This document shows positions 53,686 through 64,000 of a DNA stretch of 64,000 bases, piece after piece. Below the pieces are notes generated by a model. The model saw only the letters and a list, made by a program, of their open reading frames with translations. It was not told where the DNA came from and did not search any database. The translations under genes and the position numbers were made by a program. The stretch comes from Flavobacterium aquariorum (GTDB lineage Bacteria; Bacteroidota; Bacteroidia; Flavobacteriales; Flavobacteriaceae), in contig NZ_QKXH01000003.1 of the NCBI RefSeq assembly GCF_003254745.1, positions 248,001 to 312,000 on the forward strand, written 5' to 3'. Each line of letters begins with the position of its first letter. Position 1 is the first letter of the stretch.

Positions 53686-54333
53686 ATGACCTATTTTAAA
53701 GTATTACTAATTACCTTTTTTGCTGCCGTTTTATTGACGAGTTGCAAACAGCATCAAGAAGCCAGAAGACCTGTTTCACAATCATCCGGAAGCTTCATGA
53801 AACAATCTATAGCCCGAAACAAGAAAATGATCGCTGGAGAAGAAGACCAAATCGAAGCTGTAATAAAGAGTGATCCCACAAAAAAATACATAGCCTCCAA
53901 AAAAGGATATTGGTATTACTACGAAACCAGAAACCTGACCGATAGTCTTACTCCTAAAAAAGGAGATATTGCTTTTTTTGACTATGAAATAAAAGATTTG
54001 AAGGGAAATATTATTTATTCTCAAGAAGAATTAGAACCTCAAATCTACAAAGTGGACAAACAGGAAATCATGATGGGATTGAGAGATGGAATAAAACTAA
54101 TGCGAAAAACAGAAAAAGTACATTTCCTTTTTACTTCGCATATGGGATATGGGTATCATGGTGATAACAACAAAATAGGCACCAATCAACCTCTGTTTTG
54201 TACGGTTACACTTCGTGACTTTATGCCTGAATCTAAGTATAATGCGCAAATTCAACCAAATGTCGTTGCAAAAGCCACCACACCGATGCCTATTAAACCA
54301 AAATCAACCATAAAAGACACGTTAACAAATTAA
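53686..54333 (+). CDS. gldI: Gliding motility-associated FKBP-type lipoprotein GldI
   Basis: A 215-residue lipoprotein (MTYFKVLLITFFAAVLLTSC, Cys20) with an FKBP peptidyl-prolyl isomerase fold from about residue 90 to 185: PKKGDIAFFDYEI, IMMGLRDGIKLMRKTEKVHFLF and GYGYHGDNNKIGTNQPLFCTV. The N-terminal spacer is Lys/Gln-rich and the tail is Pro/Thr-rich. This layout matches GldI, needed for gliding and proper folding of envelope components in Flavobacterium. Placement between nrnA (6 bp) and a second isomerase (9 bp) suggests one folding operon. Identification is by family memory, not alignment. Confidence 0.8.
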   Translation: MTYFKVLLITFFAAVLLTSCKQHQEARRPVSQSSGSFMKQSIARNKKMIAGEEDQIEAVIKSDPTKKYIASKKGYWYYYETRNLTDSLTPKKGDIAFFDYEIKDLKGNIIYSQEELEPQIYKVDKQEIMMGLRDGIKLMRKTEKVHFLFTSHMGYGYHGDNNKIGTNQPLFCTVTLRDFMPESKYNAQIQPNVVAKATTPMPIKPKSTIKDTLTN

Positions 54334-54342
54334 AAAAAGAGA

Positions 54343-55467
54343 ATGAAAAAAAATATTTTATTTGCACTACTCCTCATTACAACTTTAATTTCCTGTAACA
54401 AAGAGCATAACAATTTACCTGATGGTTTATATGCCGAAATAGAAACCAATAAAGGAAGTATCCTATTAGAATTGGATTATAAAAAAGCTCCAGTAACAGT
54501 TGCGAACTTCATTACATTGGCTGAAGGCGAAAATGAATTTGTTGTCAATGATACTTTGAAAGGAAAACCATTTTACAACGGATTAAAATTCCATCGAGTT
54601 ATCAAAGATTTCATGATACAAACTGGTGATCCATTAGGAACAGGATCTGGAGATACAGGTTACAAATTCAAAGATGAGTTTAGCGATTTGAAATTTGACA
54701 AAGGTGGAATTTTGGCAATGGCCAATAATGGACCTGGAACCAATAGCAGTCAATTTTTCATCACCCATTTAGAGACTCCATGGTTAGACGGAAAACACAC
54801 TATTTTTGGACATGTAGTAGATTACAACCTTGAAGTGGTGAATAAAATAGAGCAAGATGATTTTATAAAAAACGTAACTATCATCCGAAATGGTGAAGAT
54901 GCCAAGAAATTTGATGCCAAAAAAACTTTTTACGATTATTTCAAAATAGAATCTGAAAGTCAAAAACAAAAAGTAGCCGCTGAAGCCGCTGCTAAAAAAG
55001 AATATGAAGCCAAATACAAAGCCGTTTGTGATCAAAAAGTAGCTTCTTTTACGGAATTAAAAAGTAAAGCTAACAAAACAGCAACTGGACTTCAGTATGT
55101 AATCACCAAAAAAAGTGGCGGTAAAAAACCAGCAATGGGTTCAACTGTTTATATTCATTATGCTGGATTTTTAGAAAACGGTACTTTATTTGACACCAGT
55201 ATTGAAGACGTATCCAAAACTTTTGGAAAATTTGATCCAGCAAGAGCGGCAGCTAATCAATACACTCCAATCCCATTTCAAGCAGGAAGAAAAGATGGTT
55301 TAATTCCTGGATTTATTGAAGGAATAGAAAAAATGTCCATTGGAGACAAAGCGGTTCTTTTTATTCCATCACATCTTGCGTACGGAGAAGCTGGTGCAGG
55401 TGATGTAATTCCGCCAAATACCAATATCATTTTTGAGATTGAGTTAATGGAAAAAATGCCTAATTAA
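54343..55467 (+). CDS. Lipoprotein cyclophilin-FKBP fusion (dual-family immunophilin)
   Basis: Lipoprotein signal (LITTLISC, Cys18), then two peptidyl-prolyl isomerase domains from unrelated folds. The cyclophilin domain covers about residues 29-190 ([52 protein letters not shown]). A helical Lys/Ala-rich linker follows, and then an FKBP domain at about 255-372 (GSTVYIHYAGFLENGTLFD, IPGFIEGIEKMSIGDKAVLFIPSHLAYGE, PPNTNIIFEIELME). Fusions of cyclophilin then FKBP are known as CFBP-type dual-family immunophilins, described from Bacteroidetes. It starts 9 bp after gldI, implying coordinated envelope protein folding. Confidence 0.92.
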   Translation: MKKNILFALLLITTLISCNKEHNNLPDGLYAEIETNKGSILLELDYKKAPVTVANFITLAEGENEFVVNDTLKGKPFYNGLKFHRVIKDFMIQTGDPLGTGSGDTGYKFKDEFSDLKFDKGGILAMANNGPGTNSSQFFITHLETPWLDGKHTIFGHVVDYNLEVVNKIEQDDFIKNVTIIRNGEDAKKFDAKKTFYDYFKIESESQKQKVAAEAAAKKEYEAKYKAVCDQKVASFTELKSKANKTATGLQYVITKKSGGKKPAMGSTVYIHYAGFLENGTLFDTSIEDVSKTFGKFDPARAAANQYTPIPFQAGRKDGLIPGFIEGIEKMSIGDKAVLFIPSHLAYGEAGAGDVIPPNTNIIFEIELMEKMPN

Positions 55468-55597
55468 TTCAAAAAGCTCAAAGAAGCTAAGAAACTAAGT
55501 GACTAACTTTTTAACTTATTTCTATGTTAGCTTCTTAGAGATTTAGTGTCTTAGTATCTAATCAATAATAAAATGAATCTTATAAAAATTCTAAAAA

Positions 55598-56674
55598 ATG
55601 AAATCTAAAATCACATTATTACTCTTTTTAGGGTTATTCAATTTACATGCACAAACCACAAAAAAACCAGTCACAACAAAAAAAACTGGATCAACAACGG
55701 TAAAAGCTCCTGCTGTTGTAACTCCTGAGGGTATTTATGCCACTATTGCAACCAACAAAGGGAATATCACTGTTGAATTGTTTTACAAAAAAACTCCTGT
55801 TACAGTCGCCAATTTTATAAGTTTGGCTGAAGGAAAAAATCCATTTGTAACCGTTGAAAGACTAAAAGGAAAGCCTTTCTTTGATGGCTTAAAATTTCAT
55901 AGAGTAATCAAAGATTTCATGATTCAAGGTGGAGATCCTGATGGTAATGGTTCTGGTGGACCTGGTTTTGCTTTCAAAGATGAATTTACCGATTCAAAAT
56001 TTGATAAAGCTGGAATTCTTGCCATGGCAAATTCCGGTCCAGCTACCAATGGAAGCCAATTTTTCATTACTCACAAAGATACTCCTTGGTTAAACGGAAA
56101 ACATACTATTTATGGTCAAGTAACGCAAGGAATGGCAGTAGTAAATGCTATTGCGCAAGATGATGTGATCACAAAGATTACTATTTCCAGAAAAGGAGAA
56201 GCTGCCAAAAAATTTGATGCTGCAAAAGTATTTACCGACTATTACGGAAATAAAGCGGTTGAAGAAAAATTGAAAGCTGAGAAAGAAGAAAGTGAAAGAG
56301 CTGCAGCAAATGCTATCGCTTTGAAAGAATTCGCTAACGGACAAACAACAGCAAGTGGTTTAAAATATATTGTTTTAAAAGAAGGTACGGGTGCAATGCC
56401 AACCTTGACCAGTAATATCAAAGCACATTACACAGGAAGTTTTGTCAATGGTACTATTTTTGACAGCAGTGTTCAACGTGGAGAGCCAATTGATTTTAAT
56501 TTAAATCAGGTAATTAAAGGCTGGACAGAAGGGCTTCAATTGATGAAGGAAGGTGCAAAATATAAATTTTATATACCTTATACTTTAGCTTATGGAGAAC
56601 GAGGGTATCCTGGTGCTATTCCTCCGAAAAGCGATTTAATCTTTGAAGTAGAATTGATTAAAATAAATCAATAA
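55598..56674 (+). CDS. Periplasmic cyclophilin-FKBP fusion, paralog of the preceding gene
   Basis: The same domain order as the previous gene (cyclophilin about 45-205, FKBP about 250-357) but with a cleavable signal ([19 protein letters not shown]) and no lipobox, plus a Thr/Lys-rich linker after it. Catalytic-type segments: [44 protein letters not shown] and [22 protein letters not shown]. The proteins differ substantially, so duplication is not recent. One should be membrane-bound and this one soluble in the periplasm. The 130-bp spacer between them carries CTAAG-type repeats, and an own promoter is possible. Confidence 0.92.
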
Positions 56675-56817: not shown

Positions 56818-57906
56818 ATGAAAGACATAGAATTAGTAAAAACCAAACAGCATTACGAAATCCTTGATGGACTCAGAGGTGTAGCCGCCATATCTGTGGT
56901 TGTTTTCCATTTTTTAGAATGGGTATATTCTCAGCCTAGTGAAAATTTGTTTGCCCATAGTTTTCTTGCCGTGGATTTCTTCTTTTGTCTTTCGGGCTTT
57001 GTGATTGCATACGCTTACGAAGACCGAATTGAAAAATTGGGAGTTGTCGAATTTTTTAAATCGCGTCTTATCCGATTGCATCCTTTGGTTATAATTGGAT
57101 CAATCTTGGGATTGATTGGTTATTTTCTCATTCCTTACAGCGATATCGCAAATAGAAGTGTATCTGAAGTCCTACTCCTTTTTGTTTGTTCTCTGCTACT
57201 AATTCCGCTTCCTATAATGAAAGAGCGCTTTGGCAATAACTTCGGTTTAAATGCACCTGCTTGGTCATTGTTTTGGGAATATATCGCAAACATCATTTAT
57301 TCTTTAATCTTGTGGCGTCTGTCCCGTCGTATTTTATTACTGCTGACATTTATAGCCGGAATTGCATTGGCTTATGTTTCATACAACGCAAAAGGCCTAG
57401 TGGGCGGTTGGAGTGGTGATACGTTTTGGGATGGTTGTACACGTGTTTCTTATTCCTTTTTGGCGGGTATTTTGGTGTACCGCTCCAAATGGATAATTCA
57501 AACAAAATTAGGTTTCTTAGGGCTTACGCTTCTTTTAATTCCTGCCTTTTTATATCCTTTTAATCCAGAATGGAATTTTTTGACAGAACCACTTATTGTA
57601 TTATTCTACTTCCCTTTTCTGGTTTCACTAGGTGCAGGAGCAATAACTTCTGCTAAAACAAAAAAAATATGTGCTTTTTCGGGAAACATATCCTATCCAT
57701 TATATATGACTCATTACTTTGCAATATGGATATTCGCAACTTATCAAAATAGCTATAAATTCAGTGGAATTTCACTCTTTGCAGTCGTTTCTTTAGGCAC
57801 ACTCACTTTGATTGGATTAGCCTATCTGACGATGACTTATGTAGATGTTCCGTTACGTAATTATTTGACAGAAAAAAGAAAATCGCATTTAATCGAAAAA
57901 CAATAA
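56818..57906 (+). CDS. Acyltransferase 3 family membrane protein
   Basis: A 362-residue integral-membrane acyltransferase (OafA/YrhL-type) with about ten hydrophobic segments. The family hallmark is near the N-terminus: LDGLRGVAAISVVVFHFLEW with the conserved Arg and the active-site His, followed by AVDFFFCLSGFVIAYAYEDR. The C-terminal helices include MTHYFAIW and a last VDVPLRNYL. Such enzymes O-acylate peptidoglycan, LPS or exopolysaccharide sugars; the acceptor is unknown. No glycan cluster surrounds it, and it has no SGNH domain. It is monocistronic and ends in a good terminator. Confidence 0.88.
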   Translation: MKDIELVKTKQHYEILDGLRGVAAISVVVFHFLEWVYSQPSENLFAHSFLAVDFFFCLSGFVIAYAYEDRIEKLGVVEFFKSRLIRLHPLVIIGSILGLIGYFLIPYSDIANRSVSEVLLLFVCSLLLIPLPIMKERFGNNFGLNAPAWSLFWEYIANIIYSLILWRLSRRILLLLTFIAGIALAYVSYNAKGLVGGWSGDTFWDGCTRVSYSFLAGILVYRSKWIIQTKLGFLGLTLLLIPAFLYPFNPEWNFLTEPLIVLFYFPFLVSLGAGAITSAKTKKICAFSGNISYPLYMTHYFAIWIFATYQNSYKFSGISLFAVVSLGTLTLIGLAYLTMTYVDVPLRNYLTEKRKSHLIEKQ

Positions 57907-58875: not shown

Positions 58876-61584
58876 ATGAATGTCCTTCATAAAATAAATA
58901 AATGGATAATCTGCCTAATCATACTAGGCAACTATGCTTATAGTCAGGATCAAAATTCAGAATCAGTAGCAACATTAAAAATAAAACTTCAGAAAACGAT
59001 CGCTGATACGACCAAAATAAATATCCTAAACGAAATTGCCTCAACATACAAATATTCCAATCCACAAGAGGGACTGAAATATGGAAGAAAAGCACTATCA
59101 TTATCCAATAATTTAAATTGGAAAAAAGGAATGGCTGAAGCAAATGAAAATCTGGGAATTTGCTACCAAACTGAATCCAATTATACTGAAGCCACAAATC
59201 ATCTACAGAAAGCGTTAAAATTGTACACACAAATACCTAAAAAATCAGCTATTTCAGGTACACTAAAAAATATTGCTCTTGTCTATTTGGTACAAAAAAA
59301 ATATCCAGAAGCACTTTTATATTTTGAGAAAGCATTAAAAATTAACCAACTCAATAACAACAAATTGCTAATCGTTTATGGTTTAAATGATATTGCCGAT
59401 GTTTATTTCAGACAAAATAATAACTCAAAAGCACTTAAACATTACAAGCAATCCATTAAAATAAATGAAGAAATAAAGGACAATAATGGCCTCGCTTATT
59501 GCTACGCGCGTATTGGCGAGATTTATTCAAAACAAAAAGAATATTCAAAAGCAGTAAGTTATTTATCAATAGCTATAAAGAAATACGAAAAAAATCAAAC
59601 AGCAAACATTGACAATGCACTTAAGCAATTGAGCGAAATTTATCTTCTAATGTCCAAGTCGGATATTATAAATAAAAACAAATATATTGCGCTTTCAAAG
59701 AAGGCTTTGAAACAAACATCATCAAAACAAAAACAATATTCCCAGTCAATAGAATCTTTGAAAGAGTCACTCGAAAAAGTGACTGAAGACACCACAAGAA
59801 TCAACATTCTAAACAGATTAACAAGCAGTTATTTTTACACCAATCCAAAAGAAGGAATTCCTTATGGACAAAGAGCTCTTAAACTGGCAACAAAAATAAA
59901 CTGGAAAAAAGGAATTGCTTTGGCATACAACAACCTTGGGGTATGCCAATGGGTATTAACTGACTATAATAAGGCCATTAACTATTTTGACCTGTCATTA
60001 CACAAATATGAAGAACTAAATGACCAAACAGGTATTTCGGAAGCGTATAACAATTTAGGATTAGTATATGTTGAAATAGAAAAACACAATCAAGCGTTTA
60101 AATACTTCTATAAGGCATTTGAAATAAACAAAAAAACGGGTAACAAGATATCGATGGTTTATAACTTGAATAATATTGCCTCGGCCTATTATAATCAAAA
60201 AAAATATGAAAAAGCTCTTGAGTATTATACCAAATCAAAAGATCTAAATCTTTCAATGCATGATTTAAATGGTTTAGGATATTGCTATTCAAAAATTGGG
60301 CAAATATATTCTGACCAAAAAAGATTTGCAGAGAGTCTGGATTACTTCAAAAAAGCTTTAAATAGTTACGATAAAAGTCAAACCTATAACATTGGTAATA
60401 ACTACATAGAAATGGGAATTACCTATTATAAAATGGCTTTAGTAAATTCAAACAATAGAAAGCAATTATTGACAAAATCCGCTCAATCTCTCAATAATGC
60501 TGTGCATTTATTTACAGAAAAAGGTATAATAGACCGATTGAGCATTTGCTATCTTGAACTTTATAAAACCAAAAAAGAACAGGGTAATTTCATCGAAGCC
60601 TTAAATTATTTTGAAAAACACAACACAATAAAAGATTCTCAATTTTCAAATGAAAGCCAAAACAAATTAACGAATCTTCAATCCAAACGAGAAATTGATT
60701 TAAGGGATAAACAGATTGAGATTCAAAAACTTAAAATAAATAGTAATTATAAGAAAGTATATTTGTTAGTAACTATTACCATCTCAATTGCAATACTTTT
60801 TATTTTATTCTTCTGGCTGTATATCATCAAAAGAAATACAAACGAATTATTACTTGACAAAAACGAAGAAATATCAAATATCAATAAGCAAAAGGACAAA
60901 TTTTTCTCCATCATTGCTCATGATTTAAGGGGACCTTTTAATGGTTTTTTAGGACTGACAGAACTACTGGCCGAAGAAATTGATGATATGGATAAAGAAG
61001 AAATTCAATTTGCAGCTATCAACATGAGAAGTTCTGCAAACAATCTGAACCGTCTTTTGGAAAACTTACTTGAATGGTCCAGAATGGAACAGGGATTGAT
61101 TCCATTTTCTCCTCAAGAAAGCAATTTGGTCGAAGTCATAAAAGAATGTGTAGAATCCTTGCAAGATGCTGCCAACAAGAAATTCATAACAATTGAAACT
61201 ATTATAGATCAAAATCTCAAAATTTTTGCAGATCATCACATTTTGCAATCTGTTATCCGAAATATTTTATCTAATGCCGTGAAATTCACCCCAAAAAAAG
61301 GAATCATAAAAATACATGCATTAGAAGATAAAAAAAACACTATCATAGCAATTGCTGATTCTGGAATAGGAATGAATAATAAAATGATTGAAAATATATT
61401 CCAACTCGATGTCAAAACAAACAGAAAGGGAACTGACGATGAGCCAAGTGCAGGATTAGGGCTGATACTTTGCAAAGAATTTGTGGAAAAACACAAAGGA
61501 GAGATTTGGGTAAAAAGTAAAGAAGGTAAAGGTTCTACTTTTAATTTTAGTTTTCCAAAAAATAATACAATAAATGCCATTTAA
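58876..61584 (+). CDS. TPR sensor histidine kinase with internally duplicated sensor module
   Basis: A 902-residue membrane sensor kinase. A signal peptide ends near residue 23 (NYAYS). Two large TPR modules follow, residues 31-290 and 292-560, that are copies of each other at a constant offset of about 261 (NWKKGMAEANENLG versus NWKKGIALAYNNLG; YCYARIGEIYSKQKEYSKA versus YCYSKIGQIYSDQKRFAES). A coiled coil and one membrane helix (about 628-651) lead to the cytoplasmic kinase: HisKA with His682 (FSIIAHDLRGPF), N box around Asn800 (RNILSNAVKF), G boxes IADSGIGM and GLGLILCKEF. It should autophosphorylate His682 and pass phosphate to an unknown response regulator. The next kinase begins 21 bp downstream. 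Confidence 0.9.
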   Translation: MNVLHKINKWIICLIILGNYAYSQDQNSESVATLKIKLQKTIADTTKINILNEIASTYKYSNPQEGLKYGRKALSLSNNLNWKKGMAEANENLGICYQTESNYTEATNHLQKALKLYTQIPKKSAISGTLKNIALVYLVQKKYPEALLYFEKALKINQLNNNKLLIVYGLNDIADVYFRQNNNSKALKHYKQSIKINEEIKDNNGLAYCYARIGEIYSKQKEYSKAVSYLSIAIKKYEKNQTANIDNALKQLSEIYLLMSKSDIINKNKYIALSKKALKQTSSKQKQYSQSIESLKESLEKVTEDTTRINILNRLTSSYFYTNPKEGIPYGQRALKLATKINWKKGIALAYNNLGVCQWVLTDYNKAINYFDLSLHKYEELNDQTGISEAYNNLGLVYVEIEKHNQAFKYFYKAFEINKKTGNKISMVYNLNNIASAYYNQKKYEKALEYYTKSKDLNLSMHDLNGLGYCYSKIGQIYSDQKRFAESLDYFKKALNSYDKSQTYNIGNNYIEMGITYYKMALVNSNNRKQLLTKSAQSLNNAVHLFTEKGIIDRLSICYLELYKTKKEQGNFIEALNYFEKHNTIKDSQFSNESQNKLTNLQSKREIDLRDKQIEIQKLKINSNYKKVYLLVTITISIAILFILFFWLYIIKRNTNELLLDKNEEISNINKQKDKFFSIIAHDLRGPFNGFLGLTELLAEEIDDMDKEEIQFAAINMRSSANNLNRLLENLLEWSRMEQGLIPFSPQESNLVEVIKECVESLQDAANKKFITIETIIDQNLKIFADHHILQSVIRNILSNAVKFTPKKGIIKIHALEDKKNTIIAIADSGIGMNNKMIENIFQLDVKTNRKGTDDEPSAGLGLILCKEFVEKHKGEIWVKSKEGKGSTFNFSFPKNNTINAI

Positions 61585-61605
61585 AGTGGCTTTAAAATAA
61601 TCAAA

Positions 61606-63513
61606 ATGAAAAAATATATCATTTTAATTTGTTTACTTTTTATTGGCATTAATTCATTTTCACAAAAAAGTCAGGAACAGAAAATTGACTCTTTAAAAAC
61701 AGTAATAAGTCACACAACGGTAGATACCATTAAGATAAAAGCGCTTAGCGATTTATCTGCTTTATTGTATTATAGCGACTCTCAAAAAAGTCTATATTAT
61801 TCTAACTCTGCATATGCTCTTTCAAAAAAAAACAACTACAAAAAAGGAATAGCTCTTTCATACAATAATTTTGGAGTTTATTACAGGATAAGAGCTGATT
61901 TTCCAAAAGCGCTAGATTATAATTATAAATCGCTTCACTTATTTGAAATTCTAAACGACAAAAATGGCATTGCCAAAGCAAATAATGGCCTTGGCACTAT
62001 CTACGTGGAATTTAAAAATTATAAACAGGCGCTAACTTGTTATAAAAAAGCATTGAAAGAAAGTCAAGAAATAAAGGATCGAAAATCAATTGCCACATAT
62101 TTAAATAACATTGGGGATGTCTATTTAAGAATGAAAGAGTATCAGAAAGCATTAAGCTATTTTGATAAAGCAATTAAAATGAACGCTTATGAAAAAAGCA
62201 GTTATGAGTCTGGGCTAAACTATACCAATATTGGCATTACTTTAAACTTTCTTAAACAATATAAGAAATCTATTGAAGCAACTAACAAATCTATTTCAAT
62301 TTACAATAATGACCTAAGCCTATTCAATGCCTTCAACAAATTAGAATTAGGTAAATCTTATTATTATCTTGCTTTAGAAGAAAAAAACAAAACAAATCAA
62401 TTCCAACTTTTACAAAAATCTTTGGATTACATCAAAGAGTCTTTGAAAATTTTTAAAAGAGAAAAATCATTAATAGACATTAGAGATTCCTATTCTTATT
62501 TATCTAACATTTATAAAACTCAAAACAAACCAGAACTGGCACTTATGTTTTTTGAAAAAAGTTCAAATCTAAACGATTCCATTTTTTCAAATGAGAACAA
62601 AATACAAATAGAATTTCTAAAATCACAGAGAGAAATCGACCTGAAGGATAAAAAAATTGAAATTCAAAATCTTAAAATTAAAAATGAGGCTCGCAAAGTA
62701 TATTTATTATACACCATAACCATTGCGGTTATAATTCTTTTAACCTTGTTTTTTTGGTTATACTTATCAAAAAGAAAAACGAACTTACAATTAAAAGAAA
62801 AGAACAAAGTAATATCCAACATCAACAAACAAAAAGATAAATTCTTTTCCATAATCGCACATGACCTAAGAGGTCCTTTCACTGGTTTTCTGGGATTAAC
62901 AGAACTATTGGCGCAAGATATTGACAATATGGACAAAGAAGAAATCCAGTTTGCAGCAATAAATATGAGAAGCTCTGCTGTCAATTTAAATCGTTTATTG
63001 GAGAACTTACTAGAATGGTCGAGGATGGAACAAGGTTTAATTCCTTTTTCTCCTCAAAAGAGCAAATTTCTTCCTTTAGTAAAGGAAAGCGTTAACACCC
63101 TACAAGACGAAGCAAATAAAAAAAGAATCAAAATTCAAATAAAAATACCCGAAGACTTAACCATCTATGCTGATTATCACATTCTGCAATCTGTTATTCG
63201 AAACCTACTATCCAATGCAGTGAAGTTTACACCACGAAATGGAAGCATAAAAATAGAGGCTCATGATGATTCGAAAAGTACTGTCGTTTCAATATCTGAT
63301 ACTGGTATTGGAATGGATGCCAAAATACTTCAGAATTTATTCCAACTTGAAGTTAAAACCAATAGAAATGGAACTGAAAATGAACCCAGTATCGGGTTAG
63401 GATTGATATTGTGCAAAGAATTTGTGGAGAAACATAATGGAAAAATTTGGGTAGAAAGTGAAGTAAATATAGGCACTACTTTTTATTTTAATTTTCCTCA
63501 TACCATTTCATAA
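61606..63513 (+). CDS. TPR sensor histidine kinase, paralog
   Basis: A 635-residue sensor kinase with signal MKKYIILICLLFIGINSFSQ, a single TPR module (about residues 30-330, shorter than the previous gene by one whole module), a coiled coil, a membrane helix at about 365-387 and a HisKA/HATPase core: His419 (FSIIAHDLRGPF), Asn537 (RNLLSNAVKF), ISDTGIGM and GLGLILCKEF. The kinase core is almost residue-for-residue the same as in the preceding protein, but codons differ, pointing to an old duplication under strong selection. It starts 21 bp after its neighbour, so these are probably one transcript. No response regulator is fused or adjacent within the window. Confidence 0.9.
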   Translation: MKKYIILICLLFIGINSFSQKSQEQKIDSLKTVISHTTVDTIKIKALSDLSALLYYSDSQKSLYYSNSAYALSKKNNYKKGIALSYNNFGVYYRIRADFPKALDYNYKSLHLFEILNDKNGIAKANNGLGTIYVEFKNYKQALTCYKKALKESQEIKDRKSIATYLNNIGDVYLRMKEYQKALSYFDKAIKMNAYEKSSYESGLNYTNIGITLNFLKQYKKSIEATNKSISIYNNDLSLFNAFNKLELGKSYYYLALEEKNKTNQFQLLQKSLDYIKESLKIFKREKSLIDIRDSYSYLSNIYKTQNKPELALMFFEKSSNLNDSIFSNENKIQIEFLKSQREIDLKDKKIEIQNLKIKNEARKVYLLYTITIAVIILLTLFFWLYLSKRKTNLQLKEKNKVISNINKQKDKFFSIIAHDLRGPFTGFLGLTELLAQDIDNMDKEEIQFAAINMRSSAVNLNRLLENLLEWSRMEQGLIPFSPQKSKFLPLVKESVNTLQDEANKKRIKIQIKIPEDLTIYADYHILQSVIRNLLSNAVKFTPRNGSIKIEAHDDSKSTVVSISDTGIGMDAKILQNLFQLEVKTNRNGTENEPSIGLGLILCKEFVEKHNGKIWVESEVNIGTTFYFNFPHTIS

Positions 63514-63546: not shown

Positions 63547-64000
63547 ATGATTCAAAAAACTACTCAATTATTACTTTTTTTTATCTTTTCAATAGTTCCA
63601 ACACAAGCACAAAATCCTATTTATAAAACCATTGATTCGTTAAAAATAGCATTAAAACAAACAAAAGAAGACTCGGACAAAACAGTTTTATTAACAAAAC
63701 TCTCCTCCTATTCAGAATACATTGGACCCGATGAAGCAATAAAACATGCAAAAAAAGCACTTTTTTATGCTCAAAAAAAACATAACGAACATCAGATTGG
63801 CGATACCTATGCCAATTTGGGAACCGCATATGAGATAAAATCAGACTATGCTCATGCTTTAAAAAACCTTTATAAAGCACTCGCAATTTATGAAAATTTA
63901 AATGATGTTAAAAGTCTAACTACTGTTTACAATAACATAGGACTAATTTACATTGACCTCAAAAATTATAAGCAAGGGCTTATTTTTTATAACAAAGCAC
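63547..64000 (+). CDS. Third TPR protein of the cluster, probably another sensor kinase (3' end outside window)
   Basis: An open frame runs from ATG 63547 to the right edge without a stop (151 full codons). It opens with a signal peptide (MIQKTTQLLLFFIFSIVPTQAQ), then the same kind of start as the two kinases (a DSLKIALKQTKEDSDKTVLL helix), then TPR units such as GDTYANLGTAYEIKSDYAHALKNLYKALAIYENL and TTVYNNIGLIYIDLKNYKQGLIFYNKA. By context it is likely a third TPR histidine kinase, but the catalytic part is not visible. The gap to the second kinase is 33 bp and contains a -7 box. Confidence 0.75.
   Translation, partial: MIQKTTQLLLFFIFSIVPTQAQNPIYKTIDSLKIALKQTKEDSDKTVLLTKLSSYSEYIGPDEAIKHAKKALFYAQKKHNEHQIGDTYANLGTAYEIKSDYAHALKNLYKALAIYENLNDVKSLTTVYNNIGLIYIDLKNYKQGLIFYNKA

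Follow-up and report, generated by a model that had tools for sequence, protein, structure and literature searches.

The window analysed here, the whole 64,000-nucleotide stretch of Flavobacterium aquariorum DNA, reaches at its end into an array of three kinase genes lying on the same strand (Table 1). The first of these, kinase A, is encoded by the forward-strand open reading frame 58876–61584, translates into 902 amino acids and is probably an orphan histidine kinase of the inner membrane whose periplasmic sensor is built of TPRs. Its architecture is that of a TPR-sensor histidine kinase, with TPR_12, a transmembrane helix, HisKA and HATPase_c, together with a signal peptide that is inferred from the sequence only and is presumably cleaved between ...AYS and Q, according to the –3,–1 rule. 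The catalytic motifs are intact (His682, the N-box NAVKF at 800 and G boxes at 830 and 860). Since the genes for kinases A, B and C share one strand with gaps of 21 and 33 bp, they likely form an operon. The full kinase C lies at L009:7547–9469 and comprises 640 amino acids.

Table 1 Features of kinase A and of the array that it heads (window coordinates)
Feature	Coordinates	Strand	Description
Predicted signal peptide	58876..58944	+	Residues 1–23 of kinase A, from sequence; inter-module homology starts at residue 24
Module 1, membrane-distal	58945..59727	+	Residues 24–284; offset-261 match, model helices, Pfam TPR_12
Module 2, membrane-proximal	59728..60510	+	Residues 285–545; second copy, offset-261 match, model
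Seventh TPR and coil to membrane, single	60511..60765	+	Residues 546–630; model helices, also in kinase B
Transmembrane helix	60766..60840	+	About residues 631–655; hydropathy peak 625–654
HisKA	60889..61095	+	Residues 672–740, PF00512; phospho-acceptor His682
HATPase_c	61231..61563	+	Residues 786–896, PF02518
Kinase B, single-module paralogue	61606..63513	+	635 aa; 21 bp downstream of A
Kinase C, single-module paralogue	63547..64000	+	33 bp downstream of B; extends beyond window

A domain search found no response-regulator domain within 90 kb of kinase A on its contig, the nearest matches being at C47:211741–212061 and C47:462792–463127. The genome as a whole gave 55 receiver-domain matches, some of them within long frames resembling hybrid proteins. 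The pattern that we take to be the Bacteroidota-type promoter gave 5 hits against 5.7 expected, none of them upstream of kinase A, and sigma-70-like sites (42 versus 34.0, sd 5.8, in shuffles) were not clearly above background.

Duplication of the sensor module

Most of the sensor of kinase A is duplicated. When the protein is compared with itself, offset 261 dominates with a score of 538 over residues 24–278, followed by offset 40, the TPR period (score 221). Residues 28–278 align without gaps with residues 289–539, and 100 of the 251 positions are identical. The score observed for this match (531) compares with a mean of –183 (sd 34) and a maximum of –35 among 10,000 shuffles, while displacing the halves by one TPR in either direction (261–40 and 261+40) leaves identities of 41/211 and 42/211, or ~20%. 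As a one-TPR shift collapses the match, the likeness at offset 261 is not ordinary TPR likeness. Thus, the original prediction that the two halves are co-linear at an offset of about 261 is borne out, and the shuffle and register controls contradict the notion that they are no more alike than random TPR arrays.

All of the motifs noted earlier (DTTxINILN, NPxEGxxYGxxAL, NWKKG and AYCY/GYCY) are found in both copies, and the neighbouring paralogue does have one module, as does kinase C. The boundaries first drawn, 31–290 and 292–560, do not stand, although the co-linear repeat itself does. The first copy starts at Gln24, immediately after the predicted signal peptide, and the second at Gln285, which gives a sharply bounded unit of 261 codons (783 bp), with module 1 running directly into module 2 without a spacer. 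In the predicted model each module consists of one leading helix and six TPRs, that is 13 helices. To call the duplication complete was an overstatement, because in the model of kinase A TPR7 (helices 529–546 and 549–565) and the coil next to the membrane (helix 569–599) occur once (model numbering, to which 23 is added for the protein); the model of kinase B has the same tail. The copied unit is most of the sensor, not the whole.

Stepwise gain of single TPRs, in which the halves would be alike merely because all TPRs are, is extremely improbable. Some likeness at offset 40 is present in kinase A, and in most of the other TPR proteins examined the strongest offset is 40 or a multiple of it, but the stronger offset of 261 is no multiple of 40 and the leading helix, which lies outside the TPRs, is also repeated; the register control refutes this candidate. 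The earlier claim that a whole module was doubled, rather than a few TPRs gained, is upheld by the offset-261 diagonal and the controls as well as by the junction and module tree described below.

In the structure model of kinase A, two TPR domains are linked by a joint of low confidence (pLDDT <50 at model residues 260–267), and pLDDT ranges from 66 to 82 in the final 50 residues of module 1. Mean pLDDT is equal for kinase A (84.7) and the single-module kinase B control (85.0), whereas pTM is 0.50 for A and 0.79 for B, a comparison drawn from pTM and pLDDT, with a control that is not fully matched. Each model was built on four sequences, of which two rows cover module 1. Taken together, the models suggest two domains, without fixing how one is oriented to the other, and favour two grooves over one longer solenoid. 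A single continuous superhelix of about 13 TPRs, gripping a longer filament or peptide, appears quite unlikely to us: the copies are joined without a spacer, TPR solenoids can be long, and the model is weakest at precisely the joint that decides the matter, with two sequences alone covering module 1, yet the 13 helices per module place the leading helix of module 2 outside the A–B alternation of TPR helices, and both the joint pLDDT and the low pTM speak against continuity. The longer groove proposed originally for a longer filament is thus disfavoured by the odd helix count, the joint and the pTM of 0.50. The companion proposal, that the sensing surface in the periplasm was doubled, agrees with both the anatomy and the model.

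In a structure search, module 2 plus TPR7 matched LGN (4wnd) with Z 32.2 and rmsd 3.4 over 298 aligned residues, RapI with Z 25.0 and NprR with Z 23.2, and among the matches listed those spanning both modules had an rmsd of at least 15. The LGN/Pins TPR domain, RapI and NprR are therefore among the nearest solved folds to this part of the sensor, which has the TPR fold of Rap and NprR in the RRNPP sense, as a matter of fold alone and with no membership claimed. Unlike kinase A, these proteins are not kinases and their solved entries list bound partner peptides; the likeness of kinase A to them is one of fold, which does not by itself demonstrate peptide binding.

Distribution and origin of the doubled kinase

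Among 398 genomes of the genus, with a match cut-off of E 1e-40 and the best three candidates per genome scored, 12 had a match at the cut-off or better, and the full doubled kinase was present in five: G000, G167 (90%), G150 (76%), G030 (72%) and G397 (67%). A sixth, G259, has the doubled kinase minus about 117 residues (~three TPRs) within module 1, and for each of the five full relatives the remnant scores higher against their module 1 than against their module 2. The in-frame deletion (L034:6837–9185) apparently joined TPR1 to TPR4 at similar stretches of helix A (NILN / LNEIA). All 6 of the A genes compared share the junction [ST]KQ..YSQS. In G138 and G226 a single-module A-like protein is found, with neighbours, in the stretches fetched, that differ from those of the array; these proteins match the module 2 half of kinase A. 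At the same locus, G056, G287 and G156 have a B-type kinase alone and G111 a broken C-type kinase alone, such that array content varies by species (A+B+C, A+C or B only).

In a sample of the family, 0/396 other genomes matched at 1e-35 with three candidates scored per genome, the single match among 397 family genomes (237 genera) being the window's own. A related-locus search of narrow reach returned one locus, that of F. taihuense (G030). Among the genomes seen, the duplication is apparently single in origin, and only a small subgroup of Flavobacterium has the doubled form.

Two of the arrays contain damaged genes. Kinase B of F. taihuense is broken near its N-terminus into overlapping frames of 109 and 579 amino acids (L016:5704–7702), which may reflect a real frameshift or a draft-assembly error. 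In G111 the sole remaining C-type kinase is split into frames of 419 and 202 amino acids (L040:6902–8865), and since this genome is left with one split kinase, the array may be decaying there.

A species tree was built from the two proteins flanking the array in G000 (a ClC channel and an AIR-synthase-like protein), with G138 and G226 set as outgroup. G259 is the first branch after the outgroup and has A+B+C, so that by parsimony the duplication would predate its split. The single-kinase locus of G056, G287 and G156 was considered as the ancestral state and dropped, since G259 lies outside these genomes, which by parsimony more likely lost A and C; loss of A would likewise have occurred later in G111.

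The module tree, from which the partial module 1 of G259, the frame-broken B of G030 and the C of G111 were left out, places module 1, module 2 and the modules of G138 and G226 on one side against B and C (100/100, or 84/85 with distant outgroups added). Module 1 copies form one group (100/100), and module 2 copies group more weakly (58/86; 80/82 with outgroups). Module 1 has the longer stem, 0.73 versus 0.10 for module 2 (0.53 versus 0.13 with outgroups), with long branches flagged in each of the two builds. Another candidate, concerted evolution between the modules, is unsupported: module 1 copies group across species, and for G030, the single genome in which this was tried, a tree that unites modules 1 and 2 was rejected (p-AU 6.8e-73). 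Neither order is preferred between an earlier split of module 1 and an earlier split of G138/G226 (p-AU 0.37–0.39), while a grouping of module 1 with G138/G226 gave p-AU 0.12–0.22.

The kinase halves of the array tell a different story from the sensors. In a kinase tree without G226 A, which is cut by a contig end, grouping all A-type genes together is rejected (p-AU 0.0006, or 0.005 with G138; borderline without G259, at 0.058), and so is a B-type group (p-AU 0.004). A and B of G259 are placed together (92/75, not starred), and A of G397 stands beside four B genes (94/93). The sensors reject both arrangements, the first with p-AU 2.7e-80 and the second, for module 2 of G397 with three of the four B genes, with 0.0018 (G030 B lies outside the sensor set). 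Hence, the sensor tree supports the A and B types as groups, whereas the kinase tree rejects both (window 58876–63513, L009, L016 and L034–L037). The simplest reading of these trees is that old recombination within the array exchanged kinase halves; convergent change in kinases with common partners is an alternative explanation for the mismatch.

Such recombination bears on how the doubled sensor arose, as intragenic duplication and fusion of neighbouring A-type genes yield an identical end product. In a fusion, two tandem A-type kinase genes would have recombined, losing the first kinase half and the second signal peptide. Kinase A does sit in a paralogue array of variable content, and the rejection of sensor groupings by the kinase domains makes recombination there plausible, but a fusion calls for a deletion that precisely links TPR6, at its end, with the residue that begins the mature protein, and a genome with two separate A-type genes was found in 0/398 (best three candidates per genome scored). 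We consider this route less likely than not.

Comparison with known sensors

The original prediction held doubling of a whole module to be unusual, and the samples examined agree. A FimS-model survey of 249 family genomes, comprising best matches and two added long frames and hence a biased sample, gave 33 open reading frames with a sensor, of which two pairs are the same gene, leaving 31 distinct kinases; three further frames with short N-termini were left out. In 27 of the 31 the leading self-diagonal is 40, 80 or 120, and the remaining four (L123, L137, L138 and L144) have no repeat signal, their best diagonals of 21–27 falling at arbitrary offsets, and probably have sensors of another kind than TPR. 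Sensors in this survey span 310–518 residues, compared with 660 before the kinase in A. A leading module-scale diagonal was seen in 0/27 of the TPR-type sensors, 0/13 other TPR open reading frames and 0/15 single-module B, C or A-like relatives. The set of 13 consists of open reading frames of at least 250 amino acids with a BLAST match to a module; of the 11 other TPR regions in the genome of kinase A itself, 9 contributed no such frame. One frame, in G110, shows a secondary diagonal at 239, a multiple of the TPR period, which scores 113 compared with 255 for offset 40. Four long FimS-like frames (944–1039 amino acids) were rejected as doubled sensors, their sensors being 419–518 residues and lacking a doubled module, with the extra length after the kinase. 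Whole-module doubling is therefore rare in the sampled set, and no TPR kinase with a duplicated sensor is described in the titles and abstract openings searched among open-access papers.

Within NCBIfam, kinases A, B and C all match the FimS family NF053520 best, with scores (294.8, 208.5 and 208.0 bits) far below its cut-off of 600 bits, which was exceeded by a match in 0/249 sampled family genomes. Like kinase A, FimS of Porphyromonas gingivalis has a periplasmic TPR sensor and a transmembrane helix before HisKA and HATPase_c. The gene for the FimR regulator adjoins that of the FimS kinase, whereas no such neighbour accompanies kinase A. The FimS periplasmic domain has 338 amino acids and eight predicted TPR motifs, compared with about 607 amino acids in kinase A, and the FimS signal is described as unknown (PMC11053733).

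Kinase A carries two copies of one sensor domain in one chain, and doubled periplasmic sensors are already known in other folds; what is new is the TPR kinase case. As described in PMC8534201, the BvgS and EvgS sensors are two Venus flytraps in tandem, with different roles described for the two domains of BvgS, and DctB and LuxQ have two PDC domains in tandem, those of DctB being membrane-distal and membrane-proximal. BvgS and EvgS resemble kinase A in that a periplasmic kinase sensor is made of two domains of one fold, but they have a different fold, are hybrid kinases and are likened by architecture, not sequence. DctB and LuxQ likewise share tandem copies of one sensor fold with kinase A (PMC8534201) but differ in the fold itself, and the copies in kinase A are 40% identical in sequence.

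Constraint and possible roles of the two modules

Both modules are under purifying selection of similar constraint. In the two genome pairs compared, module 1 has a dN/dS of 0.13, module 2 one of 0.14–0.15 and the kinase one of 0.08–0.10; with a value like that of module 2, module 1 is therefore not decaying. Groove positions, which we assume to be those of the canonical TPR, are conserved among orthologues at 0.70 in module 1 and 0.72 in module 2, while identity between the modules is 0.33 in the groove versus 0.43 over all positions. The groove excess among fixed inter-module differences (5/17, Fisher p 0.12) is not significant.

These values bear on the possibility that module 1 is a mere spacer or stalk, lifting module 2 or widening the dimer with no ligand of its own. 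G259 tolerated the loss of about three module 1 TPRs, and module 1 stands on the longer stem, but its dN/dS is as low as that of module 2 and its groove is as well conserved, and we regard a pure spacer as a minority possibility.

The best explanation as a whole, to which we assign a probability of roughly 60%, is a duplicated TPR module forming two separate binding domains. In the ancestor of the subgroup, an in-frame stretch of 783 bp, comprising the leading helix and six TPRs, would have been duplicated head to tail to give two separate TPR domains on one stalk. Module 2 would have kept the ancestral role of coupling to TPR7, the coil and the membrane helix, while module 1 diverged early and may have become a further binding domain, distal to the membrane. 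The concave groove of each module probably takes up a stretched-out peptide or part of a protein, as happens in LGN and Rap/NprR-type TPR domains, and groove occupancy would be passed through the dimer to the kinase. By analogy with those domains, the ability of each module to bind such a segment is the likeliest reading. Two ligands, one per module, would be plausible, in line with one of the two options first suggested. We offer as speculation, and think it unlikely, the fuller proposal that one kinase responds simultaneously to two distinct peptides or protein segments from outside the cell, through two diverged TPR receptors of a single duplication that are stacked on one stalk, with the distal module gating the ancestral proximal one. 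The array would then be a place at which TPR sensors are copied and kinase halves swapped.

The module pair, the single-module relatives in G138 and G226 and the natural partial deletion in G259 together provide a ready test of module function, and the same natural set bears on how a sensor gains a second input.

Upstream of the array, an Acyl_transf_3 gene (window 56818–57906), not seen at this place in relatives with the same isomerase neighbours, separates the kinases from three consecutive peptidyl-prolyl isomerase genes (window 53686–56674), two of which, by Pfam, combine a cyclophilin domain and an FKBP domain in one chain.
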